Source: Rhizobium leguminosarum
Lineage (GTDB): Bacteria > Pseudomonadota > Alphaproteobacteria > Rhizobiales > Rhizobiaceae
Length of the DNA stretch: 64,000 nucleotides
NCBI RefSeq assembly: GCF_001679785.1
Contig: NZ_CP016286.1
Location: 930,001-994,000 of the forward strand
Direction of reading: 5' to 3'
Both the position numbers and the translations under genes were made by a program. The stretch's first letter is position 1. Every line of letters begins with the position of its first letter. Below are positions 10,099 to 64,000 of the stretch, piece by piece. Below the pieces are notes generated by a model, which saw only the letters and a list, made by a program, of their open reading frames with translations, did not search any database and was not told the DNA's origin.

Positions 10099-10117
10099 GA
10101 CGCATGTCCTATGCGTC
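10099..10117 (+). promoter_or_regulatory. hairpin in the rpsL leader
   Basis: GACGCAT (10099-10105) pairs perfectly with ATGCGTC (10111-10117) around GTCCT. It lies 137 bases upstream of rpsL, inside the probable 5' leader. No U-run follows. A role in translational feedback of the str operon is only a possibility. Confidence 0.35.
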
Positions 10118-10253
10118 CTCTGCTCCTTGTGGTCCATCTGCGGAAGCGGATCGGGCCATATTTTGCGCATTGACGGAAAGCGCGCGTCACTGCCGGAGAC
10201 GGCGCGAGTTCAAGCCCGCAAGGGTACTGAGATAAAACGTAAGGGATGGTTGA

Positions 10254-10625: not shown

Positions 10626-10683
10626 TTCGGTTTTTGAATAATCCGGCGCTGCGCGAGGTCCTCCGCGTCATGAAGCGCCTTAA

Positions 10684-11172
<489 letters not shown>

Positions 11173-11201
11173 TTCCGAACGGTATCGAAAGGCAGTCCAC
11201 A

Positions 11202-13301
<2,100 letters not shown>

Positions 13302-13369
13302 CCGGAATACCAATTGACCGATAACAAGAATTAGATCCCTTCGGGGACTAGCAAAACGGAGACCCGAAA

Positions 13370-14545
<1,176 letters not shown>

Positions 14546-48101: not shown

Positions 48102-48115
48102 TTAGAACGTTCCAA
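48102..48115. promoter_or_regulatory. distal LacI-family operator
   Basis: TTAGAACGTTCCAA matches the operator at 48209-48222 at 13 of 14 positions and is a near-perfect palindrome. Centre-to-centre distance to the second site is 107 bp, about ten helical turns, which suits repression by DNA looping. It lies between lepB and lacI and could also influence lepB. Confidence 0.75.
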
Positions 48116-48199
48116 TTTTCCCAGTGCTGACCGCCCCGGGCGGCGCCAGAAAAATTTGCCTAAAACGTGAGCGCGAACTGCACCGGCGCGAATTTTCAC

Positions 48200-48229
48200 T
48201 TGACAAAATTGGAACGTTCCAAATATTTA
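48200..48229 (+). promoter_or_regulatory. lacI operon promoter with embedded operator
   Basis: The -35 TTGACA (48200-48205) is followed by a 17-base spacer containing the operator and then ATATTT (48223-48228), or TATTTA one base on, as the -10. The ATG of lacI is about 33 bases further. A regulator bound to the spacer would occlude RNA polymerase directly, so the operon, including lacI itself, should be autorepressed. Confidence 0.75.
48209..48222. promoter_or_regulatory. proximal LacI-family operator
   Basis: TTGGAACGTTCCAA is a perfect 14-bp palindrome with a central CG, the hallmark of LacI/GalR-family operators. It fills the spacer between the -35 and -10 hexamers of the promoter for the downstream LacI gene. 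The paired site at 48102-48115 strengthens the assignment. Confidence 0.85.
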
Positions 48230-48261
48230 TCGATCGTCGACGTTGGCAGTCGGGAGGGGAA

Positions 48262-49311
48262 ATGACAAAGGCGCGGGTAACCGTCATCGATATCGCGAAG
48301 GCCGCCGGCGTCTCGAAATCGACGGTTTCGCTGGTGCTTCAGGGCTCCTCCCTGGTCAATGAGGGGACGCGGTCCAAGGTCAATGCCGTGATGCGCGAAC
48401 TGGGTTACGTCTACAATCGCGGCGCAGCCAATCTTCGACAGGCCGGCGCCAATTCGCGGATCGTCGGGGTCGTCGTCAATGACCTGACAAACAGCTTCTT
48501 TGCGGAACTGGCGGTCGGCGTCGATATGGTCGTTCAGTCGGCCGGTTTCGTGCAATTCCTGTCGAACACCAGCGAGAGCATCGACAGGCAGCGCGAGGTT
48601 GTCGCTTCGATGCGAGAACATGGCATCTCGGGGCTCATCGTGTCGCCGGCGCGCGCCACCGATGCCGCAGACTTCAAGCCGCTTGTCGCCGCGGGGATCC
48701 CTGTCGTGGTGGTCGTGCGAAACCTGCCTGGCGCCAAAGTTTCGTCCGTCGTCTCCGACAACCAGGCGGGAATGATGTCCGCCGTCAAGCACCTGGCGGA
48801 TCTCGGTCACAAGCGCATCGCTTTTCTCGGCGGCTTTCCTGACACCGCTGTCTTCGACGACCGCCTTGCCGGTTACCGAAGCGGCATGGAGGCAGCCGGG
48901 CTCGACTATCACCAAGAACTTGTCATCTCGTCCGCGCCTTCGCGCGCCGGCGGGGTGGAGGCGATCGGAAAGGCAATCGTTCTTGCCGACAAACCCACGG
49001 CAGCCGTCTGCTTCAACGATGCCGTCGCCTTCGGTGTTTGTGACGGATTGCGTGCGCGCCGTCTGGAGCCCGGCTCCGACTTCGCGGTCGTGGGTTTCGA
49101 CGACGTCATCGAGGCTCAGGCGGCGGTTCCTGCGCTTACGACGGTCTCGGTCGATCCGCAGGGCATTGGCCGCCGCGGCGCGCAGCTGCTTCTCAAGCAG
49201 ATTAATGCGGGCAAGGCCGAGGCGGAGACGGTGACAACAGCCGTTCGGCTGGTCGTTCGCGAGAGCTGCGGAGCCCGCAAGAGCGTAAAAATCGAACAGG
49301 ACTCTGAGTAA
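48262..49311 (+). CDS. LacI-family transcriptional regulator
   Basis: The 349-residue repressor has an N-terminal HTH (TVIDIAKAAGVSKSTVSLVLQG, about 7-28). A hinge helix region follows, then the periplasmic-binding-like effector domain with RIVGVVVNDLTNSFFAELAVGVD and VVGFDDV...PALTTVSVDPQGIGRRGAQLLL. The ATG at 48262 is preceded by GGGAGGGGAA. Operators sit just upstream, so it probably represses itself and the catabolic genes that follow. Its TAA overlaps the next ATG (TAATG). The inducer is unknown but should be the imported sugar or an oxidised product. Confidence 0.95.
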   Translation: MTKARVTVIDIAKAAGVSKSTVSLVLQGSSLVNEGTRSKVNAVMRELGYVYNRGAANLRQAGANSRIVGVVVNDLTNSFFAELAVGVDMVVQSAGFVQFLSNTSESIDRQREVVASMREHGISGLIVSPARATDAADFKPLVAAGIPVVVVVRNLPGAKVSSVVSDNQAGMMSAVKHLADLGHKRIAFLGGFPDTAVFDDRLAGYRSGMEAAGLDYHQELVISSAPSRAGGVEAIGKAIVLADKPTAAVCFNDAVAFGVCDGLRARRLEPGSDFAVVGFDDVIEAQAAVPALTTVSVDPQGIGRRGAQLLLKQINAGKAEAETVTTAVRLVVRESCGARKSVKIEQDSE

Positions 49312-50930
49312 TGCCCATGAAGAAGCATCTGACCCCGACTGAAGCAGCCGCGCTGATCCCGGATGGCGCCGTTGTAACGGTGTCTTCCTCGAGCGGTCTC
49401 GGTTGCCCGGACTTCATGCTGAAGGCGATTGGCGAGCGTTTCGATGCGACCGGGCATCCCCGCGATATTACCACCCTTCATCCTATCGCCGCCGGCGACA
49501 TGAGCGGCATCAAGGGCGTCGACCATATCGCCAAGAAGGGGCTGCTCAAGCGCATCATCGGCGGTTCCTATCCGTCCGGTCCATCGTCGTCAGAGCCGCC
49601 GCTGATCTGGCAAATGATCACCAACAACGAAATCCCGGCCTACAACATTCCCTCGGGTATCCTCTTCGATATTCATCGCGAGGCCGCCGCGAAGCGGCCG
49701 GGCGTCCTGACCAAGATCGGTATCGATACATTCGTCGATCCTGAACGGCAGGGTTGCGCGATGAACGGCCTGGCTTCGGAGCATCCGGTGGTCAAGCGCG
49801 TGCGCTTCGAGGGTGACGACTGGTTGTTCTTTCCCTCGATCGTCCCTGAGGTCGCCATCATCCGCGCTACCACCGCCGACGAGCGCGGCAATCTGACATA
49901 CGAACATGAAGGCGCCTATCTCGGCGGCCTCGATCAAGCGCTGGCCGCGCGCAACAACGGCGGCATCGTCATCGCGCAGGTCAAGCGGATCACCAAGGAA
50001 GGCTCGCTGAAGCCCCATGACGTCCGCGTGCCGGGAATGCTGGTCGACTATGTCATCGTCGATCCGGAACAGAAGCAGACGACGCAGACGCAATACGATC
50101 CGGCGATTTCGGGGGAGATCTTCCGCCCGCTCGATAGTTTCAGCGTTCCGGAGTTCAATGTTCAGAAAGTCATCGCGCGTCGTGTCGCGCAGGAACTGCA
50201 AGCGGGAAGCTGCGTCAATCTCGGCTTCGGCATATCGGCCAACGTGCCGCGCATCCTGCTGGAGGAAGGGCTTCACGGCGCAGTCACCTGGGTCATCGAG
50301 CAAGGCGCGGTCGGTGGCGTGCCGCTGCTCGATTTCGCCTTTGGCTGTGCGTCCAACACGGACGCCTATATGCCGTCTCCCTATCAGTTCACCTATTTCC
50401 AGGGTGCAGGCTTCGATGCGTCGCTGCTGTCCTTCCTCGAGATCGGCAAAGACGGTTCGGTCAACGTCTCCAAGCTTTCCTTCCGGCCGCATGTGACGGC
50501 GGGCGCCGGAGGCTTCGTCGACATCACGGCGCGGGCGAGGAAGATCGTCTTCTCAGGCATGTTCAACGCCGGAGCGAAGCTTTCGATCGCCTATGGCGCT
50601 CTTCTCATCGAGAAGGAAGGCAAGCTGAAGAAGCTCGTGAACGAGGTCGAACATGTCACCTTCAGCGGCAGGCGCGCGATCGAGCAGGGGCAGGACATCA
50701 CCTATGTCACCGAGCGGTGCGTGATGAAGCTGACGCCCGACGGCGTCGTCCTCACCGAGATCGCGCCCGGCGTCGATCTCCAGGCCCACATCCTCGATCA
50801 GTCGGAGTTTCCGCTGATCGTGGCGCCCGGCCTGAAGGTCATGGACGCCGCGCTTTTCCGGGAAACAAACATCGGTCTGTCGCTTCCAGAAAAGAAGGCA
50901 CGGACGCTGGAGGGCAGCTTCCATGGCTAG
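49311..50930 (+). CDS. acyl-CoA:acetate/3-ketoacid CoA-transferase
   Basis: The 539-residue protein fuses alpha-like (1 to about 270) and beta-like (about 285-530) halves, as in E. coli YdiF. The catalytic glutamate is E330 in VIEQGAVGG, which forms the glutamyl-CoA intermediate. GLGCPDFMLKAIGERF near the N terminus contributes to the CoA site. It activates a free carboxylic or 3-keto acid at the expense of acetyl- or succinyl-CoA. Start overlaps the lacI stop by one base, with AGGA upstream. The last eight bases overlap the enoyl-CoA hydratase gene. The exact acid is unknown. Confidence 0.92.
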   Translation: MPMKKHLTPTEAAALIPDGAVVTVSSSSGLGCPDFMLKAIGERFDATGHPRDITTLHPIAAGDMSGIKGVDHIAKKGLLKRIIGGSYPSGPSSSEPPLIWQMITNNEIPAYNIPSGILFDIHREAAAKRPGVLTKIGIDTFVDPERQGCAMNGLASEHPVVKRVRFEGDDWLFFPSIVPEVAIIRATTADERGNLTYEHEGAYLGGLDQALAARNNGGIVIAQVKRITKEGSLKPHDVRVPGMLVDYVIVDPEQKQTTQTQYDPAISGEIFRPLDSFSVPEFNVQKVIARRVAQELQAGSCVNLGFGISANVPRILLEEGLHGAVTWVIEQGAVGGVPLLDFAFGCASNTDAYMPSPYQFTYFQGAGFDASLLSFLEIGKDGSVNVSKLSFRPHVTAGAGGFVDITARARKIVFSGMFNAGAKLSIAYGALLIEKEGKLKKLVNEVEHVTFSGRRAIEQGQDITYVTERCVMKLTPDGVVLTEIAPGVDLQAHILDQSEFPLIVAPGLKVMDAALFRETNIGLSLPEKKARTLEGSFHG

Positions 50931-51702
50931 CGGAACCGTTAGAATTGACGTCGATGGACATGTTGCGACGCTGACGATTTCTCGTCCGGAAAAGCTGAAC
51001 GCACTCGATCTCGATATGCTGAAAGCGTTGGCGGACGCGGCCGACGCGGTAGAGGCGAACGCAAATGTGCGCGCTGCCATTCTCACCGGCGAAGGAAAGG
51101 GCTTTTCAGCCGGAGGCGATATCAAGGCCTGGGGCGGAATGTTGCCTCAGGAGTTCGGTCATCTCTGGGTTCGGCATGGCCACCGTATCTTCGAAAGACT
51201 GGCGACGCTCCGGATGCCGCTGATCGCGGCTCTGAACGGCCACGCCCTCGGAGGAGGGCTAGAGCTTGCAGGGGTTGCGGACATTCGCCTTGCAGAGGAA
51301 CAGATCAAGATCGGCCTGCCGGAGACCGGCCTTGGCATGGTACCGGGCTGGTCCGGGACCCAGCGTCTTGTGCGCCGGTTCGGGGCGCAGGCCGTCCGGC
51401 GCATGGCCTTGGGCGGCGAGATATTCACCGCCGAGGAGGCACGCCTGCTCGGGATCGTAGACGCGGTTGTTCCCACAGGAAACGCGCTTGCGGCCGCCCG
51501 GGAATATGCGCAGCGGATCGCCGCAAGGGGGCCGGCTGCGACCGAGATCGCGAAATTGATGATCGCATCGGCAAACGGCGAAGACAATGGAACCGCGGTC
51601 GAAGCCCTGGGCTCGATCCTCGCTGCGAAGACCGGCGATCTGAAGGAGGGCGTCGCATCTTTCAGCGAGAAGCGCCCGGCAACGTTCAAGGGAGAATGGT
51701 AA
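50923..51702 (+). CDS. enoyl-CoA hydratase/isomerase family protein
   Basis: The 259-residue crotonase-fold protein has the oxyanion-hole segments FSAGGDIKAWGG (about 61-72) and NGHALGGGLELAGVADI (about 105-121). A glutamate in LPETGLGMVPGWSGTQRL aligns with a crotonase catalytic Glu; the first crotonase Glu region reads GLELAGVAD. It hydrates or isomerises an enoyl-CoA, or hydrolyses a CoA ester; crotonase members vary. It overlaps the CoA-transferase gene by eight bases and the dehydrogenase start by one, so the three are translated as a unit. Confidence 0.92.
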   Translation: MASGTVRIDVDGHVATLTISRPEKLNALDLDMLKALADAADAVEANANVRAAILTGEGKGFSAGGDIKAWGGMLPQEFGHLWVRHGHRIFERLATLRMPLIAALNGHALGGGLELAGVADIRLAEEQIKIGLPETGLGMVPGWSGTQRLVRRFGAQAVRRMALGGEIFTAEEARLLGIVDAVVPTGNALAAAREYAQRIAARGPAATEIAKLMIASANGEDNGTAVEALGSILAAKTGDLKEGVASFSEKRPATFKGEW

Positions 51703-53222
51703 TGACGGTTCTCGTCAACCCCACCGCGCTCAGCGACCACAAAGCGCGTGATTTCAAGATGCTCATCGACGGCAAATGGGAGGCAGGGAGCTCCGATCCG
51801 ATCGAGCGAGTCGCGCCAAGCCATGGTGTCGTGATCAGCCGGTTTCCGACCGGCAGCAAGAGGGACGCCGAGCGTGCGATTTCCGCGGCACGCAAGGCTT
51901 TCGATCTTGGGCCGTGGCCCCGAATGACCGCTGCCGAACGTTCCGCGATCCTGCTCAAGGCGGCCGATCTGATCGCAGCGCGCGCAGAGGAGCTGGCATT
52001 TCTCGATGCTATCGAGGCAGGAAAGCCGATCACACAGGTGCGGGGAGAAATTGCAGGCTCCGTTGACATATGGCGCTATGCGGCGGCTCTTGCCCGCGAC
52101 CTTCACGGTGAAAGCTACAACACGCTCGGCGACGGCACGCTCGGCGTCGTCTTGCGCGAAGCGATCGGCGTAGTGTCGATCATCACGCCTTGGAACTTTC
52201 CGTTCCTGATCGTCGGCCAGAAGCTGCCATTCGCCTTGGCCGCTGGTTGCACGACCGTCGTCAAGCCCTCCGAACTGACCTCAGGATCGACGCTGGTGCT
52301 GGGAGAGATCCTGCAGGAGGCAGGCATTCCGGATGGCGTCGTCAACATTGTCACCGGTACGGGACCCGAGGTCGGCGCGGTCATGACGTCGCATCCCGGC
52401 GTCGACATGGTGTCCTTCACCGGCTCGACCGGCGTCGGAAAGCTGACCATGTCGAATGCCGCACAGACGCTGAAAAAGGTCTCGCTGGAACTGGGTGGGA
52501 AGAACCCGCAGATCGTGTTCCCGGATGCCGATCTCGATGCATTCATCGATGCCGCGGTCTTCGGCGCATACTTCAACGCCGGCGAGTGCTGCAACGCCGG
52601 CTCGCGGTTGATCCTTCACAAGTCAATCGCTTCCGATGTCGTCAAGCGGATCGCCGAGCTGTCGAAGGCGGTGAAGGTCGGCGACCCGCTCGATCCCTCG
52701 ACGCAGGTCGGCGCCATCATCACGCCTGAGCATCTGGAGAAGATATCGGGATACGTCACCGGCGCGAGGAGCAGCGGTGCCCGGGTCTCACATGGCGGCG
52801 AGACGCTCGATCTCGGCATGGGGCAGTTCATGTCGCCGACGATCCTCGAAGAGGTCACCCCTGATATGGCCGTGGCGCGCGAGGAAGTCTTTGGCCCGGT
52901 GCTTTCGGTGCTGACATTCGAGACGTCAGCCGAAGCGATCAGGATTGCGAATTCCATCGACTACGGCCTGTCAGCCGGTATCTGGAGCCGCGATTTCGAC
53001 ACGTGCCTGACGATCGGCCGGTCGGTGCGGGCGGGGACGGTCTGGATGAACACCTTTATGGATGGTGCTTCGGAACTTCCCTTCGGCGGTTACAAGCAAA
53101 GCGGCCTCGGCCGTGAGCTCGGCCGCCATGCGGTCGAAGACTACACCGAGACCAAGACGCTCAACATGCATATCGGCAAACGCACCAGCTGGTGGATGCC
53201 GCAGACGGAAAAGCCGGCTTAG
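51702..53222 (+). CDS. NAD(P)-dependent aldehyde dehydrogenase
   Basis: The 506-residue enzyme oxidises an aldehyde to the acid. ITPWNFPFL (about 161-169) and FTGSTGVGK bind the cofactor, E263 (LELGGKNPQ) is the general base, and C297 in NAGECC is the likely nucleophile. I chose ATG 51702, which overlaps the hydratase TAA (TAATG) with GGGAGA upstream; ATG 51696 is two codons longer. It is most like betaine- and lactaldehyde-type dehydrogenases, but the substrate should follow from the operon. An 88-bp gap with hairpins separates it from the transporter genes. Confidence 0.93.
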
Positions 53223-53261
53223 CCGGCGGCCGAACTACGCCCGAGGAGGGCGGGTGATTGG

Positions 53262-53280
53262 TGCGGGAATAGGTCCCGCA
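53262..53280 (+). promoter_or_regulatory. hairpin upstream of the binding-protein gene
   Basis: TGCGGGA (53262-53268) pairs with TCCCGCA (53274-53280) around ATAGG, 30 bases before the binding-protein start. It may mark an mRNA processing point that allows higher expression of the binding protein than of the enzymes upstream. Confidence 0.4.
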
Positions 53281-53310
53281 TCCTCCAAGATGGAACTGGG
53301 AGGTTCTTCG

Positions 53311-54573
53311 ATGAATAGGTTTCTGACTACGACTGCAATGATCGCATTGGCTCTGGCCGGCGCCAGCGTGTCCGCCCAAGCCGCTGACGTGAAGGAAGTG
53401 CAGATGCTGCACTGGTGGACGTCAGGCGGCGAGGCAGCGGCACTGAACGTATTGAAGGAGGATCTTTCCAAGGAAGGTTTTGCCTGGAAGGATGTTCCGG
53501 TTGCCGGCGGTGGCGGCGATGCGGCGATGACGGCGCTGAAGGCGATGGTGGCGGCAGGCACCTATCCGACGGCCTCGCAGATGCTCGGCTATACCGTGCT
53601 CGATTATGCTCAGGCCGGCGTCATGGGCGACCTGACGGAGACGGCCAAGAAGGAAGGCTGGGACAAGTCGGTTCCGGCGGCCCTGCAGAAGTTCTCGGTC
53701 TATGACGGCAAGTGGGTTGCAGCCCCGGTCAACGTCCACTCGGTCAACTGGCTGTGGATCAACAAGGCGGTGATGGACAAGATCGGCGGCACTCAGCCGA
53801 AGACCTTCGAGGAGCTGATCGCGCTGCTCGACAAGGCCAAGGCTGCCGGCGTCATCCCGCTGGCACTCGGCGGCCAGAACTGGCAGGAAGCGACGATGTT
53901 CGATTCCATCGTGCTGTCGACCGGCGGGCCGGAGTTCTACAAGAAGGCCTTCAACGACCTCGACGATGAATCGCTGAAGTCCGACACGATGAAGAAGTCC
54001 TTCGATAATCTGGCGACGATCATCAAATATGTCGACCCGAACTTCTCGGGCCGCGACTGGAATCTGGCGACCGCCATGGTCATCAAGGGTGACGCGCTGT
54101 TGCAGGTGATGGGCGACTGGGCCAAGGGGGAATTCGTCGCCGCCAAGAAGACGCCGGACACCGACTTCCTGTGCTACCGCTTCCCGGGCACCGACGGCAG
54201 CGTGGTCTACAACTCCGACATGTTCGGCATGTTCAACGTCCCCGACGACCGCAAGGCGGCCCAGGTGGCGCTGGCAACGGCAACGCTGTCGAAGAGCTTC
54301 CAGTCGGCCTTCAACGTCGTCAAGGGTTCGGTGCCGGCCCGTACCGACGTTCCCGATACCGACTTCGATGCCTGCGGCAAGAAGGGTATCGCCGATCTGA
54401 AGGCAGCCAACGAAGGCGGCACGCTGTTCGGCTCGCTGGCGCAAGGTTACGGCGCACCGCCTGCCATCGCCAATGCCTATAAGGATGTCGTCTCGAAGTT
54501 CGTCCATGGCCAGATCAAGACCTCCGACGAAGCCGTCAAGCAGCTCGTCCAGGCGATCGACGACGCCCGCTGA
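53311..54573 (+). CDS. sugar ABC transporter substrate-binding protein
   Basis: The 420-residue periplasmic protein has a signal peptide (MNRFLTTT, hydrophobic core, cleavage after SAQA near 24). The mature part starts [28 protein letters not shown], the pattern of glucose/mannose-type binding proteins such as Gts[18 protein letters not shown] and [16 protein letters not shown] are ligand-site regions in that family. The ATG follows TGGGAGG. It delivers the substrate to the permeases encoded next. A hairpin on each side suggests elevated, protected mRNA for this gene. Confidence 0.95.
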
Positions 54574-54592
54574 GACCATTTGTGATGACAAT

Positions 54593-54618
54593 GCTTCCCC
54601 GCCTGCTGGCGGGGAAGC
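54593..54618 (+). promoter_or_regulatory. perfect stem-loop after the binding-protein gene
   Basis: GCTTCCCCGCC (54593-54603) pairs perfectly with GGCGGGGAAGC (54608-54618) around TGCT, without a U-tract. Such hairpins after binding-protein genes typically protect the upstream mRNA and reduce permease expression. Confidence 0.65.
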
Positions 54619-54633
54619 TTCAGGCTCCACGCC

Positions 54634-54684
54634 GATCATGCAGGGATGATCATGCGGGGCCGATTGCCCGGACGATCATGCAGG
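54634..54684. repeat. three short direct repeats GATCATGCRGG
   Basis: GATCATGCAGG (54634-54644), GATCATGCGGG (54648-54658) and GATCATGCAGG (54674-54684) lie between the binding-protein hairpin and the first permease start. The last copy adjoins the ribosome-binding site. No known function. Confidence 0.5.
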
Positions 54685-54700
54685 CAGGAGATGACATTCC

Positions 54701-55654
54701 ATGAGCACCGTTGCGACCACCGATCCGGTTCTGACGCCGAGGCAATCGACGGGGGTCTCGTTGAGGGGCCGGCTGCAGGATGCGCTGCCGAAGATCGTGC
54801 TGGCGCCGAGCTTCGTCATCACCATCATCTTCGTCTACGGCTTCATCGTCTGGACGGCCTATCTGTCGTTTACCAATTCCAAGACATTCCCCTCCTATGC
54901 GCTGACCGGGGCACGCGCCTATCAACGGCTGTGGCGCTGGACCTTCGAGAGCGATCCGCCGTCTTCCTGGTACACCTCGATCACCAACATGGCGATCTTC
55001 GGCTTCCTCTATATCGGCATCTGCCTGGCGCTCGGTCTGTTCCTCGCCATCCTGCTCGACCAGAAGATCCGCGGTGAGAGCGTGTTGCGGCCGATCTTCC
55101 TCTATCCGATGGCGCTCTCCTTCATCGTGACAGGCGTTGCCTGGAAATGGTTCCTCGATCCCGGCCTCGGGCTGGAACAGACGCTGCACCATTTTGGCTG
55201 GACGAGCTTCCACTTCGACTGGATCAAGAACAAGGACTTCGTCATCTACACCGTCGTCATCGCCGGTGTCTGGCAGGCATCCGGCTTCGTCATGGCGATG
55301 TTCCTGGCGGGGCTGCGCGGCATCGACGGCGAGATCATGAAGGCGGCCCAGATCGACGGCGCCTCGCCATTCCAGCTCTATCGCCGCATCGTCATCCCGC
55401 TGCTGCGGCCGATCTTTCTCTCCGCCTTCATCGTGCTCGCCCATATGGCGATCAAGTCCTACGACCTGGTGGTGGCGCTGACCTCGGGCGGCCCCGGCGG
55501 CTCGGCCTGGCTGCCGTCGAACTTCATGTATGAATATACCTTCAAGCGCAACGAGATGGCCGTCGGCTCGGCCAGCGCCATCATCATGCTGATGACGATC
55601 TCGGCGATCATCGTCCCCTATCTCTATTCCGAACTGAAGGAGAAGGCGCGATGA
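54701..55654 (+). CDS. sugar ABC transporter permease (inner subunit 1)
   Basis: The 317-residue polytopic protein has about six membrane helices starting with KIVLAPSFVITIIFVYGFIVW. The EAA loop EIMKAAQIDGASPFQLYRRIVIPLL (about 225-249) contacts the ATPase. It is of the MalF/GtsB type without the large periplasmic loop of MalF. AGGAGATGACATTCC precedes the ATG. It overlaps the second permease by four bases (ATGA). Confidence 0.94.
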   Translation: MSTVATTDPVLTPRQSTGVSLRGRLQDALPKIVLAPSFVITIIFVYGFIVWTAYLSFTNSKTFPSYALTGARAYQRLWRWTFESDPPSSWYTSITNMAIFGFLYIGICLALGLFLAILLDQKIRGESVLRPIFLYPMALSFIVTGVAWKWFLDPGLGLEQTLHHFGWTSFHFDWIKNKDFVIYTVVIAGVWQASGFVMAMFLAGLRGIDGEIMKAAQIDGASPFQLYRRIVIPLLRPIFLSAFIVLAHMAIKSYDLVVALTSGGPGGSAWLPSNFMYEYTFKRNEMAVGSASAIIMLMTISAIIVPYLYSELKEKAR

Positions 55655-56619
55655 GCAGCGTGACCTCTCCGATAGCAGCCTCGGCAACGCTGCCGCAGAC
55701 CAGCGACAGCAGGAACAACAACACCCGCTGGATCGGCCGCACCGTCATCTACGGCCTGCTGCTGATCTTTGCCGTCCTCTACCTGATGCCGCTCTTCGTC
55801 ATGCTGACGACCTCGTTCAAGACCATGGACGAGATCCAGGGCGGCAACATGCTGGCGCTGCCGCAATCGCCGACCTTCGATCCCTGGATCAAGGCCTGGG
55901 GCGAGACCTGCGTCGGGCTCACCTGCGCCGGCATCAAGGGCTACTTCTGGAACTCGATCAAGATGGTGGTGCCGGCTGTCGCGATCTCCACCATCATGGG
56001 GGCGCTGAACGGTTATGTGCTGACCAAGTGGCGCTTTCCCGGCCACACGCTGGTGTTCGGGCTGATGCTGTTTGCCTGCTTCATCCCGTTCCAGTCGGTG
56101 CTGTTGCCGATGGCAACGATCCTCGGCTCGCTCGGCCGCTTCGGTATGACGCTGCAGAACGCCATGGGCTGGAACTTCGGCTTCGGCAATCCGACGATCA
56201 ATCTGGTCTTCGTGCATGTCGTCTATGGCCTCGGCTTCACGACGCTGTTCTTCCGCAATTTCTACGAGGCCTTTCCGACCGAGCTGGTCAGGGCCGCCCA
56301 GGTCGATGGCGCCAGCTTCTTCCAGATCTTCCGCCGCATCATGCTGCCGAACTCGCTGCCGATCATCGTCGTCACGGTGATCTACCAGTTCACCAATATC
56401 TGGAACGACTTCCTGTTTGCGTCTGCCTATGCCGGCACCGGCGAATCCATGCCGATGACGGTGGCGCTGAACAATGTCGTCAACACCTCGACGGGCGTCG
56501 TCGAATACAATGTCAACATGGCGGCTGCGATGATCGCCGCCGTGCCGACGCTCATCGTCTATATCCTCGCCGGCCGCTACTTCGTGCGCGGTCTGATGGC
56601 GGGCGCTGTCAAAGGGTAA
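55651..56619 (+). CDS. sugar ABC transporter permease (inner subunit 2)
   Basis: The 322-residue MalG/GtsC-type permease starts with a polar cytoplasmic tail and a helix VIYGLLLIFAVLYLMPLFVML. The EAA loop reads ELVRAAQVDGASFFQIFRRIMLPNS (about 220-244). A segment of about 25 residues with ETCVGLTCAGIKGYFWNSI forms a longer first periplasmic loop, as in GtsC-type transporters. The ATPase gene follows by three bases. Confidence 0.94.
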   Translation: MSSVTSPIAASATLPQTSDSRNNNTRWIGRTVIYGLLLIFAVLYLMPLFVMLTTSFKTMDEIQGGNMLALPQSPTFDPWIKAWGETCVGLTCAGIKGYFWNSIKMVVPAVAISTIMGALNGYVLTKWRFPGHTLVFGLMLFACFIPFQSVLLPMATILGSLGRFGMTLQNAMGWNFGFGNPTINLVFVHVVYGLGFTTLFFRNFYEAFPTELVRAAQVDGASFFQIFRRIMLPNSLPIIVVTVIYQFTNIWNDFLFASAYAGTGESMPMTVALNNVVNTSTGVVEYNVNMAAAMIAAVPTLIVYILAGRYFVRGLMAGAVKG

Positions 56620-56622
56620 TCC

Positions 56623-57738
56623 ATGGCCTTCCTCGAAATCTCCGGTCTCAAAAAGCGCTTCGGCGCCGTCGACATTCTCAAGGGGATCGACCTCGAACTC
56701 GAAAAGGGCGGCTTTCTCGTGCTGGTCGGCCCGTCCGGCTGCGGCAAGTCCACCCTGCTCAACACCATTGCCGGGCTGGAGACGATCACCTCTGGCGATA
56801 TCCGGATCGACGGGCGCGACATCAGCGGCCTGCATCCCTCCAAGCGCGACATCGCCATGGTGTTCCAGTCCTATGCGCTCTATCTGAACATGACGGTGGC
56901 GGGCAACATCGCCTTCGGCATGGAGATCCGCGGCGTGCCGAAGGAGGAGCGTGCCAGGGCGATCGCCCAGGTCTCCGACATGCTGCAGATCGGCCATCTG
57001 CTCGACCGCAAGCCGAGCCAGCTCTCCGGCGGCCAGCGCCAGCGTGTCGCCATGGGCAGGGCCTTGGTGCGCAATCCGCAGGTCTTCCTGTTCGACGAGC
57101 CGCTCTCCAATCTCGATGCCAAGCTGCGGGTCGACATGCGCACCGAGATCAAGCGGCTGCATCAGCGCATGGGCACCACCTTCGTCTATGTCACCCATGA
57201 CCAGATCGAGGCGATGACGCTGGCGACCAAGATCGCCGTGCTGAAGGACGGCGTGCTGCAGCAGTTCGGCACGCCGGCCGAGATCTATAACAGCCCTTCC
57301 AACATCTTCGTCGCCGACTTCATGGGATCGCCGGCGATGAACCTCTTGACCGCCACCGTCGAGAACGGCGCCGGCGGGCTGGAAGTCTCGCTGGAGCGGC
57401 CGAATGCCGCCCCGCTGAGATTGCCGGTCATATCAGGCAATGACGGCCTGACTGCCTATACCGGCAAACAGGTGATCTTCGGCATCCGGCCGGAGGCGCT
57501 AACCGATCCCGATGGCGCCGACCGCAAGGCGCGCTCGCTGACCGAGGGCGACTGCCTGATCGAGGTGGTCGAACCGGCAGGCTCCGACACCTTCGCCGTC
57601 ACCAAGCTCGGCGGCAAATCCGTCGTCGCCCGCCTGCGCGCCGATACCGGCATCGCTCCCGGACAAAACACCCGCCTCGCCTTCAATCTCGATAAGGCCG
57701 TCTTCTTCGATCCGGACACACAGGCGCGGATCGCTTGA
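56623..57738 (+). CDS. sugar ABC transporter ATP-binding protein
   Basis: The 371-residue ATPase is of the MalK/UgpC/MsmK type. Walker A is GPSGCGKST (36-44), Q-loop VFQSYALY, signature LSGGQRQRVAMGRAL, Walker B VFLFDEPLSNLDAKLR, and H-loop VTHDQ. A C-terminal regulatory OB-type domain begins near 235 (NIFVADFMGSPAMNLL) and is of normal length. It energises the importer formed with the two preceding permeases. GMC gene 57754 follows by 15 bp. Confidence 0.96.
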   Translation: MAFLEISGLKKRFGAVDILKGIDLELEKGGFLVLVGPSGCGKSTLLNTIAGLETITSGDIRIDGRDISGLHPSKRDIAMVFQSYALYLNMTVAGNIAFGMEIRGVPKEERARAIAQVSDMLQIGHLLDRKPSQLSGGQRQRVAMGRALVRNPQVFLFDEPLSNLDAKLRVDMRTEIKRLHQRMGTTFVYVTHDQIEAMTLATKIAVLKDGVLQQFGTPAEIYNSPSNIFVADFMGSPAMNLLTATVENGAGGLEVSLERPNAAPLRLPVISGNDGLTAYTGKQVIFGIRPEALTDPDGADRKARSLTEGDCLIEVVEPAGSDTFAVTKLGGKSVVARLRADTGIAPGQNTRLAFNLDKAVFFDPDTQARIA

Positions 57739-57753
57739 GGGCCAGGTGCTAAC

Positions 57754-59298
57754 ATGAGCGGTTCACCTGACATCGTCATCATCGGTTCAGGCGTCGGCGG
57801 CGCCACGGTCGCGGCCGGTCTGGCCGTGACCGGTGCGCAGATATTGATCCTCGAAGCCGGCGACCATATCGCCGACCTTCCTGTTAATCGCGACCAGCGC
57901 GCGATCTTCCAGCGGGGACATTTTCGACCGAAGGAAACCTGGTACGAGGCAAGCGGCAAGGGGTTCAATCCCGGCAACTACTACAATGTCGGCGGGAATT
58001 CGAAGTTCTACGGCGCCGTGTTGTCACGTTATCGCAAGCAAGATTTCGACGTCATCCAGCACCGGGAGGGCGTGTCGCCGGCCTGGCCGTTTCCGTATGA
58101 GGTGCTGGAGCCGTGGTACTGCCAGGCCGAACGCATGTATCAGGTCCGCGGCAGCCTTGGCGAAGACCCCACAGAACCGCACCACTCGGCTTCCTACGAG
58201 TACCCGCCCGTCCCGGACGAGGCGCCGATCGCCGATATCAGGGCGCGCCTCAAGCGGAAAGGCCTGCATCCGTTTTCCCTGCCGCTCGGCCTCGATCTTG
58301 ACGCCTGGCTCTCCAAAGCACGCACACCATGGGATGCGCATCCGAACGCCCGCGACGGCAAGATGGATGCCGAGACCGCAGCCCTTGCAGTGGCGCTGAG
58401 GCACGAGAACGTCCGGCTCGAAACCAATGCGCGGGTGACGGGGCTTGACACGGGAGCGGGGAGCCGGATCGACCGGGTGACCTACATCAAGAACGGGGAG
58501 ACGCTGACTGTTTCGCCTGAGATCGTGATCCTCTCCGCCGGGGCGGTCCAATCATCAGTGCTTTTGCTGCGTTCGAAAAACGACCGCTTCCCAAAGGGTC
58601 TGGCGAATTCTTCCGACCAGGTGGGCCGCAACTTCATGAACCACAATGCCTCCGCGGTCATCGGGGTCTCGCCGCGGTTCAGCAACACCTCCATCTACCA
58701 GAAGACGTTTGCCTTCAACGACTTCTATCTCTCCGACGGGGAGGGAGGGCCGCCCCTCGGCAACGTGCAGCTCCTGGGGCGCATCTCCGAGAGAGTTCTC
58801 AAGGGCTCTCTGCCCCAGGCTCCGGAATGGCTTCTGCGCTTCATCACCGGCCATGCCATCGACTTCTATGCGATGAGCGAGGACGTTCCCAATCCCGAAA
58901 GCCGAGTCATGGTGGATGGAGACCGGATTATTCTCCAATGGCAGCGAACCAATTGGGACGCTCATCTCGCGCTTGTCGCCAGGCTGAAGGCAATACTGAA
59001 GTCGATCGGGTTTCCGATCGTGCTGGCGAGGCCCTTCGACAAGCGCACGCCCTCCCATCAGTGCGGAACGATCCGCATCGGAAACGATCCCGCGGCTGCG
59101 CCGCTCGACGCGTATTGCCGGGCTTATGATCACGACAATCTCTTCGTCGTCGACGCGAGTTTCCTCCCCACATCGGCCGCTGTGAATCCTGCGCTCACTA
59201 TCGCCGGCCAGGCACTGAGAGTGGCAGATCACATCGCGTCGAAGGACTTGCAGGCACGAGACGCGCTGGCAGACCGAACGGACAAAATAGGAAAGTAA
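57754..59298 (+). CDS. GMC-family FAD oxidoreductase 1
   Basis: The 514-residue flavoenzyme has the Rossmann FAD motif GSGVGGATVA (11-20) and LEAGD. The glycine-rich loop YNVGGNSKFYGAVL replaces the usual GGSS-type loop. The C-terminal active site has H in SHQCGT and N in AAVNPALTIAGQALRVADHI. This looks like the sugar-oxidising GMC branch (glucoside dehydrogenase-like) rather than choline dehydrogenase. No signal peptide is present, so it is probably cytoplasmic or needs a partner. It lies between the importer and a second GMC gene, one base before the latter. Confidence 0.9.
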   Translation: MSGSPDIVIIGSGVGGATVAAGLAVTGAQILILEAGDHIADLPVNRDQRAIFQRGHFRPKETWYEASGKGFNPGNYYNVGGNSKFYGAVLSRYRKQDFDVIQHREGVSPAWPFPYEVLEPWYCQAERMYQVRGSLGEDPTEPHHSASYEYPPVPDEAPIADIRARLKRKGLHPFSLPLGLDLDAWLSKARTPWDAHPNARDGKMDAETAALAVALRHENVRLETNARVTGLDTGAGSRIDRVTYIKNGETLTVSPEIVILSAGAVQSSVLLLRSKNDRFPKGLANSSDQVGRNFMNHNASAVIGVSPRFSNTSIYQKTFAFNDFYLSDGEGGPPLGNVQLLGRISERVLKGSLPQAPEWLLRFITGHAIDFYAMSEDVPNPESRVMVDGDRIILQWQRTNWDAHLALVARLKAILKSIGFPIVLARPFDKRTPSHQCGTIRIGNDPAAAPLDAYCRAYDHDNLFVVDASFLPTSAAVNPALTIAGQALRVADHIASKDLQARDALADRTDKIGK

Positions 59299-59299
59299 G

Positions 59300-60955
59300 A
59301 TGGGTTTCGACTATATCATCACCGGCGCCGGCCCTGCAGGATGCGTGCTTGCAAATCGGCTGAGCGAAGATCCAGATGTCAGAGTACTCCTGCTCGAGGC
59401 GGGTGGAGGCGACTGGAATCCGCTTTTTCACATGCCCGCGGGCTTCGCCAAGATGACCAAAGGCGTCGCCAGCTGGGGATGGGAAACCGTTCCCCAGAAG
59501 CACATGAAAGGCCGGGTGCTTCGCTATACGCAGGCGAAAGTCATTGGTGGCGGCTCGTCCATCAACGCACAGCTCTACACGCGTGGAAACGCGGTGGATT
59601 ATGACCTCTGGGCTCGTGAAGACGGCTGCGAGGGCTGGGACTATCGTTCGATCCTTCCTTATTTCAAACGTGCGGAGGACAACCAGCGCTTCGCCGACGA
59701 CTACCACTCCTATGGCGGTCCGCTCGGCGTCTCCATGCCTGCTGCGCCGCTGCCGATCTGCGACGCCTATATCCGTGCAGGGCAGGAGCTCGGCATTCCC
59801 TACAATCACGACTTCAACGGACGCCAGCAGGCAGGCGTGGGATTTTATCAGCTGACGCAGCGCAACCGTCGCCGGTCGTCGGCATCGCTCGCCTATCTCT
59901 CGCCGATCAAGGACCGGAAGAACCTGACGGTCAGGACGGGCACGCGCGTCGCGCGTATTATCGTGGAGGGAGCCCGTGCGACAGGCGTCGAGATCGTGAC
60001 CTCGCACGGCCAGGAGATCGTGCGCGCCGACCGCGAAGTATTGGTTTCCTCCGGCGCCATCGGATCACCGAAGCTGCTTTTGCAGTCCGGCATAGGACCG
60101 GCCGACCATCTCAAGTCGGTGGGCGTCAAGGTGCTCCACGATCTGCCGGGTGTCGGCGGCAACCTCCAGGATCACCTGGATCTTTTCGTCATTGCCGAAT
60201 GCACGGGCGATCACACCTATGATGGCGTCGCAAAATACCACCGGACCGTTTGGGCCGGGATTCAATATGTCCTGTTCCGCACAGGACCGGTTGCCTCGTC
60301 CCTCTTCGAGACCGGCGGCTTCTGGTACGTCGATCCGCAAGCCCGTTCTCCTGATATCCAGTTTCATCTCGGCCTGGGTTCGGGCATCGAAGCGGGTGTC
60401 GAACGGCTCAAGAATGCCGGCGTGACCCTTAACTCCGCCTATCTGCATCCGCGGTCGCGGGGGACGGTGCGTCTGTCAACCTCCGACCCGGCTGCCGCTC
60501 CATTGATCGACCCCAACTACTGGTCCGATCCTCACGACAGGACGATGTCCCTGGAAGGGCTGAAGCTCGCGCGCGAGATCATGCAGCAGGCGGCGCTGAA
60601 GCCCTATGTCATGGCCGAAAGGCTTCCCGGACCGAAGGTGATGACCGACGAGCAGCTTTTCGACTACGGCTGCGCCAACGCAAAGACCGACCATCATCCG
60701 GTGGGAACCTGCAAGATGGGGGTGGGACCCGATGCGGTTGTCGGACTTGATCTCAAGGTCCATGGCCTGGAAGGCCTCAGGGTCTGCGATTCATCCGTCA
60801 TGCCGCGCGTGCCGTCATGCAATACCAACGCTCCGACGATCATGGTCGGCGAAAAAGGCTCGGACCTCATTCGGGGCTTGCCTGCACTTCCATCTGCCAT
60901 CTTCGCCTACGAACGCAACGATACGCGGCCTCGGGCTCGCGCCGAAATCCGGTAG
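59300..60955 (+). CDS. GMC-family FAD oxidoreductase 2 (choline-dehydrogenase-like)
   Basis: The 551-residue protein belongs to the alcohol/choline dehydrogenase branch of GMC enzymes. FAD motif GAGPAGCVLANRL lies at 9-21, followed by LLEAGGGD. VIGGGSSINAQLYTRG is GMC signature 1 and SSGAIGSPKLLLQSGIGP is signature 2. The active-site histidine is in HHPVGTCKMG and the asparagine in SCNTNAPTIMVGEK. It oxidises a primary or secondary alcohol, passing electrons to a membrane acceptor or oxygen. Start is one base after GMC 1 with GGAAAG upstream. Confidence 0.93.
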   Translation: MGFDYIITGAGPAGCVLANRLSEDPDVRVLLLEAGGGDWNPLFHMPAGFAKMTKGVASWGWETVPQKHMKGRVLRYTQAKVIGGGSSINAQLYTRGNAVDYDLWAREDGCEGWDYRSILPYFKRAEDNQRFADDYHSYGGPLGVSMPAAPLPICDAYIRAGQELGIPYNHDFNGRQQAGVGFYQLTQRNRRRSSASLAYLSPIKDRKNLTVRTGTRVARIIVEGARATGVEIVTSHGQEIVRADREVLVSSGAIGSPKLLLQSGIGPADHLKSVGVKVLHDLPGVGGNLQDHLDLFVIAECTGDHTYDGVAKYHRTVWAGIQYVLFRTGPVASSLFETGGFWYVDPQARSPDIQFHLGLGSGIEAGVERLKNAGVTLNSAYLHPRSRGTVRLSTSDPAAAPLIDPNYWSDPHDRTMSLEGLKLAREIMQQAALKPYVMAERLPGPKVMTDEQLFDYGCANAKTDHHPVGTCKMGVGPDAVVGLDLKVHGLEGLRVCDSSVMPRVPSCNTNAPTIMVGEKGSDLIRGLPALPSAIFAYERNDTRPRARAEIR

Positions 60956-60979
60956 GCCATGTCGAGAGGAGAGACGACA

Positions 60980-62149
60980 ATGTCTGAAGTCAGAGTTGCA
61001 GTGATTGGCGCATCGGGCTGGATGGGAAGGGTCCACACGATGGCCTATCAGACCTTTCCGCATTTCTTCGGAGTGTCGGACGGAACGGCACGGATCGTCG
61101 CTCTCGTCGAAGGTCCGTCGAAGACAGCCGGGGACCTTTCTCACAGGGCGCCGGGTGCAAGAATTCTTCAGGATTGGAATCTCGCGGTCGCTGATCCGGA
61201 TGTCGATCTGATCGATATCTGCCTGCCTGACCATCTCCACTACGAGGTGGCCAAGGCGGCCTTGCTGGCCGGCAAACATGTCTATTGCGAGAAGCCGTTG
61301 GCAAACACCGCCGCCGAGGCGCGGGAACTGGCCGACATCGCCAGGGAAAAGGGTGTCATTACCCGCGTTGGACACGCCTTTCCTCGGAATCCCGTCCATG
61401 ATCTGGCGAAAGATATCATTCAATCCGGCGAAATTGGCGAGATCAAGCTATTCCGCGGCTGCCAGCACGTCGACATGTATGGCGATCCGAACGCGCCCTT
61501 CATGTGGCGGGGCGACGGAAAGCTTGCGCCGACCGGGATCGTCGGTGATACCGGTTCGCACATCTTCAGCTTCATGGATTTCCTGGTCGGCCGCGTCAGT
61601 TCCCTGATCGCCGACAATCTCATCGTGACGCCGCGCCGGCCTGTCGTCGAAGGCCTTGCCTATGGCGAGCAGGTGAAGCTGACAGGCAATGAGACCTGGG
61701 CTGATATCACCAATCCCGATGCAACCAATCTGCTGTGCCGGTTCGAGAACGGCGCCGGCGGGATCGTCGATTTCAGCCGTGTCGCGACCGGCCGCAAGTT
61801 CATGCAGACCTATGAAATCTATGGAACGAAAGGCAGCATCGCCTATACCTATGACGAGATAAACCGGCTGCGCTTCTACTCCAACGACGACCTGACGGGA
61901 CGTCGCGGCTTTCGCGAGATCGACGTGGGTCCTGAGAACCCCACTTTCCGGGCTTTCCTTCCTCTGCCGAATTTCGGCCTGGGCTACAATGAAAGCAAGA
62001 TCATCGAGGTGGCCGAGGTGATCCGCTCGATCGTTGCAAACAGGCCGATGTGGCCGACATTCGATACAGGCCATCACATCTGCCAGATTGTCGACGCATG
62101 CATGGAGTCCTCCCGGCAAAGGCGCTGGGTCGACATCCCGCTGGGCTGA
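60980..62149 (+). CDS. Gfo/Idh/MocA-family oxidoreductase
   Basis: The 389-residue NAD(P)-dependent dehydrogenase has the Rossmann start VRVAVIGASGWMGRVH. The CEKPLANT motif near 97-104 supplies the active-site lysine, and GDTGSHIFSFMDFLVG the conserved Asp and His of the catalytic region. The family oxidises inositols, aminosugars and 1,6-anhydro or keto sugars. ATG 60980 has GAGAGGAGAG upstream; ATG 60959 lies ahead of that site. Placement after two flavin oxidases suggests it acts on the same oxidised sugar or cyclitol skeleton. Confidence 0.93.
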   Translation: MSEVRVAVIGASGWMGRVHTMAYQTFPHFFGVSDGTARIVALVEGPSKTAGDLSHRAPGARILQDWNLAVADPDVDLIDICLPDHLHYEVAKAALLAGKHVYCEKPLANTAAEARELADIAREKGVITRVGHAFPRNPVHDLAKDIIQSGEIGEIKLFRGCQHVDMYGDPNAPFMWRGDGKLAPTGIVGDTGSHIFSFMDFLVGRVSSLIADNLIVTPRRPVVEGLAYGEQVKLTGNETWADITNPDATNLLCRFENGAGGIVDFSRVATGRKFMQTYEIYGTKGSIAYTYDEINRLRFYSNDDLTGRRGFREIDVGPENPTFRAFLPLPNFGLGYNESKIIEVAEVIRSIVANRPMWPTFDTGHHICQIVDACMESSRQRRWVDIPLG

Positions 62150-62155
62150 ACGCCG

Positions 62156-64000
62156 ATGACCACAGACGTTCCGCAGGAAATTCTTGACGCACTGACCGAT
62201 GTCGACATGCCGCGGCTCCCAACCGAGCCCGGCCGTTCGGACGTGGTCCGGCTCGCCGGCGTCGAGGCGCCGATCTATCGAGCCGGTTGCGTCGTCGTCG
62301 GATCCGGCGCGGCGGGTCTGCGTGCGGCGGTGGAATTGAAACGGCGCGGCGACGACGTCGTCATTATCAGCCAAAGCGCGTGGGGTGGAACCTCGGCCTG
62401 TTCGGGATCGGACAAGCAGACTCTTCACACGGCAAACACGACCGATCAGGGCGACAATTACAAGGCAATGGCGCGCGCCATCCGCAGCGGCGGTGCGATG
62501 GACGAGGACACGGCCTATGTCGAGGCTGTAGGCTCGTCCCGGATGATGGCATCACTCCAGTTCTTAGGCCTGCCGCTGCCTCAAGATCCGCTTGGCGGGA
62601 CGCTCAGATATCAGACCGACCATGACGAGGTCGGCCGCGCCACCAGTTGCGGCCCGCGCACCTCGCGCCTGATGGTCAAGGTGCTGGCCGAGGAAGCGAT
62701 CCGGCTCGGAGTGCCGTTTTACAACCAGACCACCGCGGTAAAGATCCTTACCGAGGGCGCTGGCGGTGACCGTCACGTCGTCGGGATAGTCGCCATGCGC
62801 GCCAGCGACCGCAGGGAGGAGAACCCGCTGGGCCTTGCGCTGTTCTTCAGCGGCGTGATCGTGCTCGCCGCCGGCGGGCCGGGTGAACTCTATCGCGACA
62901 GCGTTTATCCCAACGGCTGCTTCGGCTCTCTCGGATTGGCGCTGGACGCAGGCGTCGAACTCGTCAACCTGACCGAAAGCCAGTTTGGCATCGGAACACG
63001 TAGGGAGGGATTCCCGTGGAATCTGTCAGGCACCTACGTCCAGGCGATCCCGCATATTTACTCGGTGGACGCCGAAGGCGCCGAGCATCACTTCCTGGCA
63101 GAATACTATCGCAGCACCCAGGAGCTGGCGTCGAACATCTTCCGCAAGGGCTATCAGTGGCCATTTCACGCGACACGCATGCTCGATTTCGGCTCGAGCC
63201 TGGTCGATCTGGCCATCTTCAGGGAGACCGCCGCGGGACGGCGCGTCTTCATGGACTTCAATCGCAATCCGCTGCCGGGGGACCTGTCGTTCAGCTTGGA
63301 AAGACTGGATGAAGACGTCCGTCTCTATCTCGGCAAGGCCGGTGCCGACCAGGACATGCCGATCGATCGGTTGAAGCATATGAACCCGCTCGCGATCGAA
63401 CTCTATCGCCGCTCCAAAATCGACATTGCCGAGGAGCCGCTGGAATTTGCCGTCAACAATCAGCACATGAACGGCGGCATCATGGTCGATACCTGGGGCC
63501 GCAGCAGTCTCGGCGGCTGTTACGCGGTCGGAGAGGCGGCGGGCACACACGGCGTGACGAGGCCGGGTGGAGCGGCGCTCAATGCCGGGCAAGTCTTCGG
63601 TACGCGCGCGGCGGAGCACATCAGCGCGAGTGGCAGGGCAAAGCGGTCGGCGGCAGATGACATCGCCGATATCGCAGAGGCGGGCATCGCCGACCTCCTT
63701 GCGGTCCTTCGGACCGAGAGCCCGCACACCGTCAAATCTATCCGTTCGCAAGTACAGGCGCGAATGAGTGAAAAGGCTGGCATCCTCTGCGATCAGGAAA
63801 GTGTCAGCGGCGCCCTGCTCGAAGCACGCAAGCTGAATGCTGAAATTCGCGATAACGGCGTCGCCTACGGTCGAGCAGCGGAGGCGGTTCGCGGCGTGCA
63901 ATGGTGGCATATGGCGCTTGCTTCGGAAGCCGTGCTCAGCGCGCTTGATTTCTTCATTCGCAACGGCGGCGGCAGCCGCGGGGCGCGGGCGATATGCGAC
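62156..64000 (+). CDS. fumarate-reductase-like FAD-binding protein, 3' truncated by window
   Basis: The ATG at 62156 (6 bp after the previous stop) opens a frame that stays open through 64000, at least 615 residues. It starts MTTDVPQEILDALTDVDMPR. The FAD motif CVVVGSGAAGLRAAVELKRRG lies near 43-63, then SQSAWGGTSACSG. GGVMV-type flavoprotein motifs follow (QHMNGGIMVDTWGRSSLGG, YAVGEAAGTHGVTRPGGAALNAGQVFG), as in succinate dehydrogenase/fumarate reductase and L-aspartate oxidase flavoproteins. It probably performs a dehydrogenation or reduction in the same pathway. The C terminus is outside the window. Confidence 0.88.
   Translation, partial: MTTDVPQEILDALTDVDMPRLPTEPGRSDVVRLAGVEAPIYRAGCVVVGSGAAGLRAAVELKRRGDDVVIISQSAWGGTSACSGSDKQTLHTANTTDQGDNYKAMARAIRSGGAMDEDTAYVEAVGSSRMMASLQFLGLPLPQDPLGGTLRYQTDHDEVGRATSCGPRTSRLMVKVLAEEAIRLGVPFYNQTTAVKILTEGAGGDRHVVGIVAMRASDRREENPLGLALFFSGVIVLAAGGPGELYRDSVYPNGCFGSLGLALDAGVELVNLTESQFGIGTRREGFPWNLSGTYVQAIPHIYSVDAEGAEHHFLAEYYRSTQELASNIFRKGYQWPFHATRMLDFGSSLVDLAIFRETAAGRRVFMDFNRNPLPGDLSFSLERLDEDVRLYLGKAGADQDMPIDRLKHMNPLAIELYRRSKIDIAEEPLEFAVNNQHMNGGIMVDTWGRSSLGGCYAVGEAAGTHGVTRPGGAALNAGQVFGTRAAEHISASGRAKRSAADDIADIAEAGIADLLAVLRTESPHTVKSIRSQVQARMSEKAGILCDQESVSGALLEARKLNAEIRDNGVAYGRAAEAVRGVQWWHMALASEAVLSALDFFIRNGGGSRGARAICD

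Follow-up and report, generated by a model that had tools for sequence, protein, structure and literature searches.

A LacI-controlled operon of Rhizobium leguminosarum combining CoA-ester enzymes, sugar import and flavoproteins, possibly for 1,5-anhydrohexoses

The window analysed here is a stretch of 64,000 nucleotides of Rhizobium leguminosarum (contig NZ_CP016286.1; G000:C1:930001-994000 within an 8.57-Mb genome), whose region 48102-64000 holds 12 genes, all on the + strand, running from lacI to a flavoprotein of the FrdA/SdhA fold and encoding, in between, CoA-ester enzymes, a sugar importer and several oxidoreductases. The new observation, made by sequence comparison, is that the gene for 1,5-anhydro-D-fructose reductase (AFR) lies within the same core operon in many other rhizobia. 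Because AFR sits in the core operon of these relatives, the substrate can be narrowed to 1,5-anhydrohexoses or close kin, and we give about an even chance to the reading that this is a LacI-repressed catabolic operon for such compounds (1,5-anhydroglucitol, 1,5-anhydrofructose, 1,5-anhydromannitol). An earlier note on this DNA, which had pictured a LacI-controlled set of genes for a sugar or cyclitol that is oxidised at several hydroxyls and finished through CoA thioesters, is partly supported: the gene content and order that it described are confirmed by open reading frames and profile scans, and its sugar is supported; its cyclitol was set aside, given that the Gfo/Idh/MocA dehydrogenase (hereafter Gfo/Idh enzyme) scores 91.4 bits to inositol dehydrogenase against a cut-off of 355.

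The linkage to AFR was seen in a survey of 84 loci (L004-L087), namely, the best 80 of at least 582 relatives of GMC1, the first of two GMC flavoproteins of the operon, plus 4 plasmid loci, with flanks that reach 10 kb from GMC1; having been picked by GMC1 similarity, these loci are closely related. Genes were labelled at 45% identity or more over 35% of the length in the 84-locus table, and at 42% for the rows of the tree discussed below. The gene order, which the earlier note had proposed to look for in other rhizobia, was found again in the loci of relatives, so that chance does not account for the gene set. Three strains, S. meliloti Ak57, Rhizobium sp. ACO-34A and CCGE531, have an extra gene placed after lacI and ahead of the CoA-transferase gene, annotated across the three strains as AFR, fructose reductase or Gfo/Idh; the S. 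meliloti protein aligns with the solved AFR (PDB 4koa) over 333 of 333 residues at 725.9 bits, and 2glx was also matched. Both lacI and the CoA-transferase gene are in view in 43 of the 84 loci, and among these, AFR is present in 32 and a levoglucosan-dehydrogenase-like gene in 11, with the two together in 2 loci and neither in 2. When 297 genomes of the family were sampled independently (thresholds of E 1e-90 for AFR and 1e-130 for GMC1), AFR was found in 73 genomes, GMC1 in 88, both in 70, and AFR alone in 3; the two genes lie no more than 15 kb apart in 67 of the 70 genomes with both, and on separate contigs in the other 3. The core order of the AFR-linked operons, lacI-CoA-transferase-hydratase-aldehyde dehydrogenase (ALDH)-ABC importer-GMC1-GMC2, is present in the window operon.

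The regulation of these operons supports a single unit, as had been proposed from the window. A perfect copy of a LacI-type operator sits between the two hexamers of TTGACA...AATATT, 5' of lacI, and operator matches with up to 2 mismatches are expected by chance 0.09 times per window. Promoter-like sites number 3 in the region against 3.6 expected from shuffles, that is, they are not enriched, so the promoter call rests on position around the operator. A scan of the whole genome yielded no further operator site with at most 1 mismatch, and 9 sites with 2 mismatches against 21 for a reversed control pattern. Among the relatives, 72 loci were surveyed, of which 36 with fewer than 150 upstream bases were set aside; in the 36 left, the operator (at most 1 mismatch) was found in 28 upstream regions, including all 24 testable loci in which lacI or AFR is the first gene in view and 4 of the 12 whose first scored gene is that of the CoA-transferase. 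As a control, 720 pieces were drawn at random from these loci, with the true site possibly among them, and 13 of the pieces hold the operator. The operator is common to the AFR-bearing and AFR-less forms, the window operon included. Thus, the LacI regulator looks local: a single operator would serve operon forms with differing enzymes, in a genome without other sites of at most 1 mismatch. Rhizobium sp. ACO-34A has another gene annotated as a LacI regulator, located between those for ALDH and the binding protein (L085:11974-13026, - strand).

The importer fits a sugar, in agreement with the earlier assignment. The binding protein scores 550 bits to 4r2b and 362 bits to 5dvf, its nearest relatives being 4r2b, which we take to hold glucose, and the glucose-type binders of Pseudomonas; an aromatic or fatty acid substrate was rejected on the ground of this glucose-type importer. 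Across loci, the binding protein and permeases come in two exchangeable versions, of which the window carries type A. All 33 type A proteins have Gln at residue 378, which we take to have a functional role, and all 38 type B proteins have His there, as do glucose-type relatives; L027, which has no binding-protein match, was counted as type B in one table of the 84-locus survey. Neither L027 nor L141, a locus with AFR, CoA-transferase, hydratase, GMC1, a short-chain dehydrogenase/reductase (SDR) and GMC2, has an importer, and this, together with the interchange of the two versions, is what could be expected if the importer and the CoA enzymes served unrelated substrates and merely shared a promoter. 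Given that gene order and operator are kept over wide distances, we regard such an arrangement as very improbable.

The active-site residues of the enzymes examined are intact. The residues listed in the table, which we take from the respective families to be catalytic, are retained throughout the alignments of relatives: in 72 of 72 for the CoA-transferase and likewise for both crotonase glutamates of the hydratase, in 70 of 70 for ALDH, 97 of 97 for GMC1, 99 of 99 for GMC2 and 42 of 42 for the Gfo/Idh enzyme. The nearest solved relative of the hydratase is a 3-hydroxypropionyl-CoA dehydratase. The gene set agrees with the predicted capacity for several hydroxyl oxidations and for CoA chemistry, the CoA enzymes having kept their catalytic residues; with ALDH counted, the oxidoreductases number five, in place of the four first reported. 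GMC1, at the N-terminal start of which no signal peptide was seen, was tried as a pyranose oxidase and rejected (33.3 bits against a cut-off of 544.9). For the terminal flavoprotein, the predicted model (mean pLDDT 61.4, middling) places the protein in the SdhA/FrdA fold and supports nothing finer; no gene for a partner (iron-sulphur) subunit lies alongside, unlike in succinate dehydrogenase and fumarate reductase.

A different substrate, a normal reducing sugar, either keto or aldo (an osone, that is, a 2-keto aldose, or L-sorbose), would turn GMC2 and ALDH into sorbose and sorbosone dehydrogenases and AFR into a reductase of the 2-keto aldehyde. AFR reportedly does reduce osones too, the ALDH of ACO-34A is annotated as sorbosone dehydrogenase, the binding protein is of the glucose type, and the table accessible from PMC12542648 lists SMc04390 as L-sorbose dehydrogenase, SMc04391 as SDR and SMc04392 as dehydrogenase. 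Such a route leaves unexplained both the CoA-transferase with the hydratase and the tight linkage of AFR, and GMC2 scores as choline-dehydrogenase-like, so that we consider it rather unlikely.

The operon is compact, as described from the outset: 9 of its 11 gene junctions overlap or leave a gap of at most 15 bases, the exceptions being the spacers 5' (88 bases) and 3' (127 bases) of the binding-protein gene. A look beyond position 64000, which had been proposed as a check, showed that the flavoprotein gene ends at G000:C1:994234; the next frame is exonuclease-III-like and on the opposite strand, which indicates that the operon ends with the flavoprotein gene. Names for the two permeases and the ATPase come from matches to annotated relatives, not from a profile scan. 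Divergent from lacI is a gene judged by its translation to be signal-peptidase-I-like (46976-47917, - strand).

Table. Features of the operon (window positions).
Feature	Position	Strand	Basis or remark
Upstream operator copy TTAGAACGTTCCAA	48102..48115	+	1 mismatch to palindrome; 107 bases from second copy
Promoter-like site TTGACA-16-AATATT	48200..48227	+	10/12 match
Perfect palindromic LacI-type operator TTGGAACGTTCCAA	48209..48222	+	inside promoter-like site; kept in relatives
LacI-family regulator	48262..49311	+	PF00356, PF13377
Fused class-I-type CoA-transferase, FadX-like	49311..50930	+	profile scan; Glu330
Enoyl-CoA hydratase / dehydratase	50923..51702	+	profile scan; solved relative 5zai; Glu114, Glu134
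Aldehyde dehydrogenase (ALDH)	51696..53222	+	profile scan; Cys299, Glu265
Sugar binding protein, glucose-binding type	53311..54573	+	similarity to solved binders; residue 378 = Gln
ABC permease, first	54701..55654	+	matches to annotated relatives
ABC permease, second	55651..56619	+	matches to annotated relatives
ABC ATPase	56623..57738	+	matches to annotated relatives
GMC1, divergent GMC flavoprotein	57754..59298	+	nearest solved: FAD glucose and fructose dehydrogenases; His435, Asn478
GMC2, choline-dehydrogenase-like GMC flavoprotein	59300..60955	+	profile scan; His466, Asn510
Gfo/Idh/MocA dehydrogenase, levoglucosan-dehydrogenase-like, under family cut-off	60959..62149	+	profile scan; Lys112, Asp197, His201
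FrdA/SdhA-fold flavoprotein	62156..64000, continuing 234 bases past window	+	profile scan, fold model

The operons differ in the genes that accompany this core. The SDR gene, between GMC1 and GMC2, is found in 42 of the 84 loci, and the flavoprotein gene, after GMC2, in the other 42, such that no locus has both and none has neither. The levoglucosan-dehydrogenase-like gene accompanies the flavoprotein (36 of 42 loci, vs 0 of 42 SDR loci), and a glycerate-2-kinase-like gene accompanies the SDR (25 of 42, vs 0 of 42 flavoprotein loci). In a 98-row tree of GMC1 (fasttree), the SDR state changed at least 8 times, a rough figure because 34 forks are open and branches are long. At least one among SDR, flavoprotein and the levoglucosan-dehydrogenase-like gene is present in 97 of the 98 rows, the exception being L142; in L144, L151 and L128, the levoglucosan-dehydrogenase-like gene occurs with neither of the other two. 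This distribution argues that the SDR is replaced by the flavoprotein and/or the Gfo/Idh enzyme: judged by gene content, the three substitute for each other from genome to genome, and the single linear chain through all the flavoproteins that had been envisaged is not required.

The SDR form has a further companion. In the genomes of 42 loci searched for DUF993 (24 SDR-type, 18 flavoprotein-type), a copy with at least 74% identity was found in 23 of the 24 SDR-type genomes and in 0 of the 18 others, with the remaining genomes holding a relative of 57-62% only, or none. All 23 copies lie within 2.4 kb past the upstream edge of the locus (coordinates compared by hand, and the contig taken to be the same), and the distant L126 has genes for DUF993, Dabb and glycerate kinase inside the operon. 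The DUF993 protein is annotated as dihydrodipicolinate-synthase-like. Beside 4 flavoprotein loci, there is instead a KDG-kinase-like gene, whose product fits best to 2-keto-3-deoxygluconokinase (249.9 bits, cut-off 400), similar to the 261.2 bits of the likely KdgK of the window's own genome. The only DUF993 gene of that genome (G000:C1:4134937-4136094) is flanked by Gfo/Idh matches at C1:4133384 and C1:4136398 and perhaps belongs to another sugar cluster.

Two further explanations have to be weighed against this pattern. Glycosides, or anhydro sugars of another kind such as levoglucosan, would be degraded by a 3-keto route, with C3 oxidised by GMC1 or the Gfo/Idh enzyme and the ring or bond opened by beta-elimination. 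The best family for the Gfo/Idh enzyme is indeed levoglucosan dehydrogenase (NF052479, 306.6 bits; structure match PDB 6a3f), but the curated cut-off is 650, none of the 42 SDR-type loci has the enzyme, and the operon genes include neither a glycoside hydrolase nor any known keto-sugar lyase, which makes this route unlikely. Alternatively, the CoA part could act on a deoxyribonate-like compound, a deoxy sugar acid being oxidised as its CoA ester and cleaved to glycerate. In the accessible text of PMC6365646, a Klebsiella cluster joins CoA genes and a glycerate kinase, and SDR, CoA-transferase and hydratase genes come together again in the distant L127, L129 and L131; the window operon, however, has no CoA ligase or thiolase gene, and glycerate kinase occurs in 0 of 42 flavoprotein-type loci, so that we find this alternative quite improbable.

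Several clusters at the periphery of the family deserve mention in their own right. L127 and L129 hold CoA-transferase, hydratase, SDR, DUF993 and a xylose-isomerase-like gene, with no GMC1 and no AFR. In L130 (~6000-13440), translations read by eye show relatives of the CoA-transferase (63%) and hydratase (39%) next to genes of the TRAP-transporter type and one for a sugar acid dehydratase resembling the enolase superfamily. Protein scans of L146 and L142 for substrate hints led us to judge both as other systems: L142 has a GMC1 relative and no CoA genes, and L146:6410-18599 combines an AFR relative (50%) with genes for an acetolactate-synthase/IolD-like thiamine pyrophosphate enzyme, a histidinol-dehydrogenase-like protein, an ABC transporter and a DHDPS-family protein.

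Returning to 1,5-anhydrohexoses, we tentatively suggest a mechanism: a CoA-dependent, aerobic ring opening of a 1,5-anhydrohexitol to 2-keto-3-deoxy-D-gluconate, with catalytic CoA and two interchangeable finishing sets, SDR with DUF993, or the partnerless FrdA-type flavoprotein with the Gfo/Idh enzyme; the whole of this scheme, finishing sets included, is possible but, in our estimate, improbable as it stands. In the order of reactions that we infer, the binding protein would deliver the ring-locked sugar, GMC1 would oxidise a ring hydroxyl, for example, C2 of anhydroglucitol to give anhydrofructose, and AFR, where present, would produce the manno alcohol; GMC2 and ALDH would then convert C6 to a carboxylate, and the CoA-transferase would make the thioester of the C6 acid. 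A crotonase requires a CoA ester bearing a beta hydroxyl, and in the C6 acid of a 1,5-anhydrohexitol, C4 would bear the beta hydroxyl, with C5 as the alpha carbon that carries the ring oxygen. With this geometry, the hydratase could eliminate the C4 hydroxyl to form an enol ether, addition of water at C5 would open the ring to a 2-keto-3-deoxy acid, and CoA would be passed to the next acid molecule. By hand projection, anhydromannitol would give exactly 2-keto-3-deoxy-D-gluconate and anhydroglucitol its C5 epimer, which would explain the use of a manno-selective AFR. In the window version, the Gfo/Idh enzyme and flavoprotein would take over the adjusting oxidations or reductions performed elsewhere by AFR and SDR. 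The KDG-kinase-like gene in one form, and DUF993 with the glycerate-2-kinase-like gene in the other, would suit a 2-keto-3-deoxy acid product.

A number of points weigh against 1,5-anhydrohexoses as the substrate. There is no AFR gene in the window operon or in its genome (best match 29%), where no SDR orthologue was found either and where the sole DUF993 relative (60%) lies away from the operon. ALDH is missing in L141 and undetected in L054, so C6 oxidation by ALDH would not be obligatory. The likeness of GMC1 and the Gfo/Idh enzyme is to enzymes for other sugars, and lies far under the family cut-offs. That SMc04390-04401 of S. meliloti is the same cluster, with SMc04400 as AFR, we assume from the gene order of a published table. 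Induction of smc04396 by dextrin, as PMC4960864 states in its accessible part, citing others, counts in favour of these substrates but may come from another dextrin component. Finally, according to the available text of a 2025 review (PMC12441222), Rhizobiaceae use anhydrofructose by reducing it to anhydromannitol, which speaks for our reading, but an unidentified P450-like enzyme is then said to hydroxylate anhydromannitol at C1 to mannose, a route that needs no CoA step.

The literature searched, which leaves out most subscription journals, yielded no account of such a gene set, in keeping with the initial impression that no described pathway has it. A term search in the accessible text of the LacI regulon survey PMC4052901 found none of the terms CoA, oxidoreductase and fructose reductase; PMC4560400, as far as available, lists SMc04401 as a regulator and nothing more, and in PMC5789663 nothing was found on the cluster. 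The R. leguminosarum gmcA was rejected as a member, being pRL100444 on a plasmid in the available text of PMC7105596, whereas L004 is on NC_008380.1. The review cited above (PMC12441222, accessible part) describes the oxidative route for 1,5-anhydroglucitol as undescribed and considers that an aerobic enzyme acting on this compound would be useful for lowering it in two inherited neutropenias. If our reading is true, the operon would supply a candidate transporter, regulator and enzymes for an aerobic route, in well-studied rhizobia, and a sugar pathway where CoA thioester chemistry opens an ether ring. The SDR-type operons also provide a first context for DUF993, on which no paper was found in the same literature.

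Among known systems, the AFR system for 1,5-anhydrofructose utilisation of Sinorhizobium morelense and S. meliloti (2glx, 4koa) is linked to the operon by the AFR gene within the same core operon of relatives; it differs in that the window's genome lacks AFR and that the literature gives hydroxylation to mannose as the following step, in place of a CoA route. Carnitine CaiB/CaiD carry out a CoA-cycling dehydration, and a CoA-transferase with a crotonase and no thiolase would similarly permit catalytic CoA, although the transferase here is of the fused class-I type and not CaiB-like. Levoglucosan dehydrogenase is the best family for the Gfo/Idh enzyme, which retains the catalytic Lys, Asp and His but falls well short of the cut-off. 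The anaerobic gut pathway for 1,5-anhydroglucitol and anhydromannitol shares the proposed substrates; as given in the available text of PMC12441222, it relies on phosphorylation by the phosphotransferase system and on glycyl radical enzymes, whereas here there are ABC import, flavoproteins and CoA enzymes. The deoxyribonate cluster of Klebsiella michiganensis, in the accessible part of PMC6365646, is alike in handling a sugar acid as a CoA thioester and, with respect to the SDR-type loci, in its terminal glycerate kinase, but employs a CoA ligase and thiolase in contrast to the CoA-transferase, hydratase, GMC enzymes and sugar importer of the rhizobial operon.

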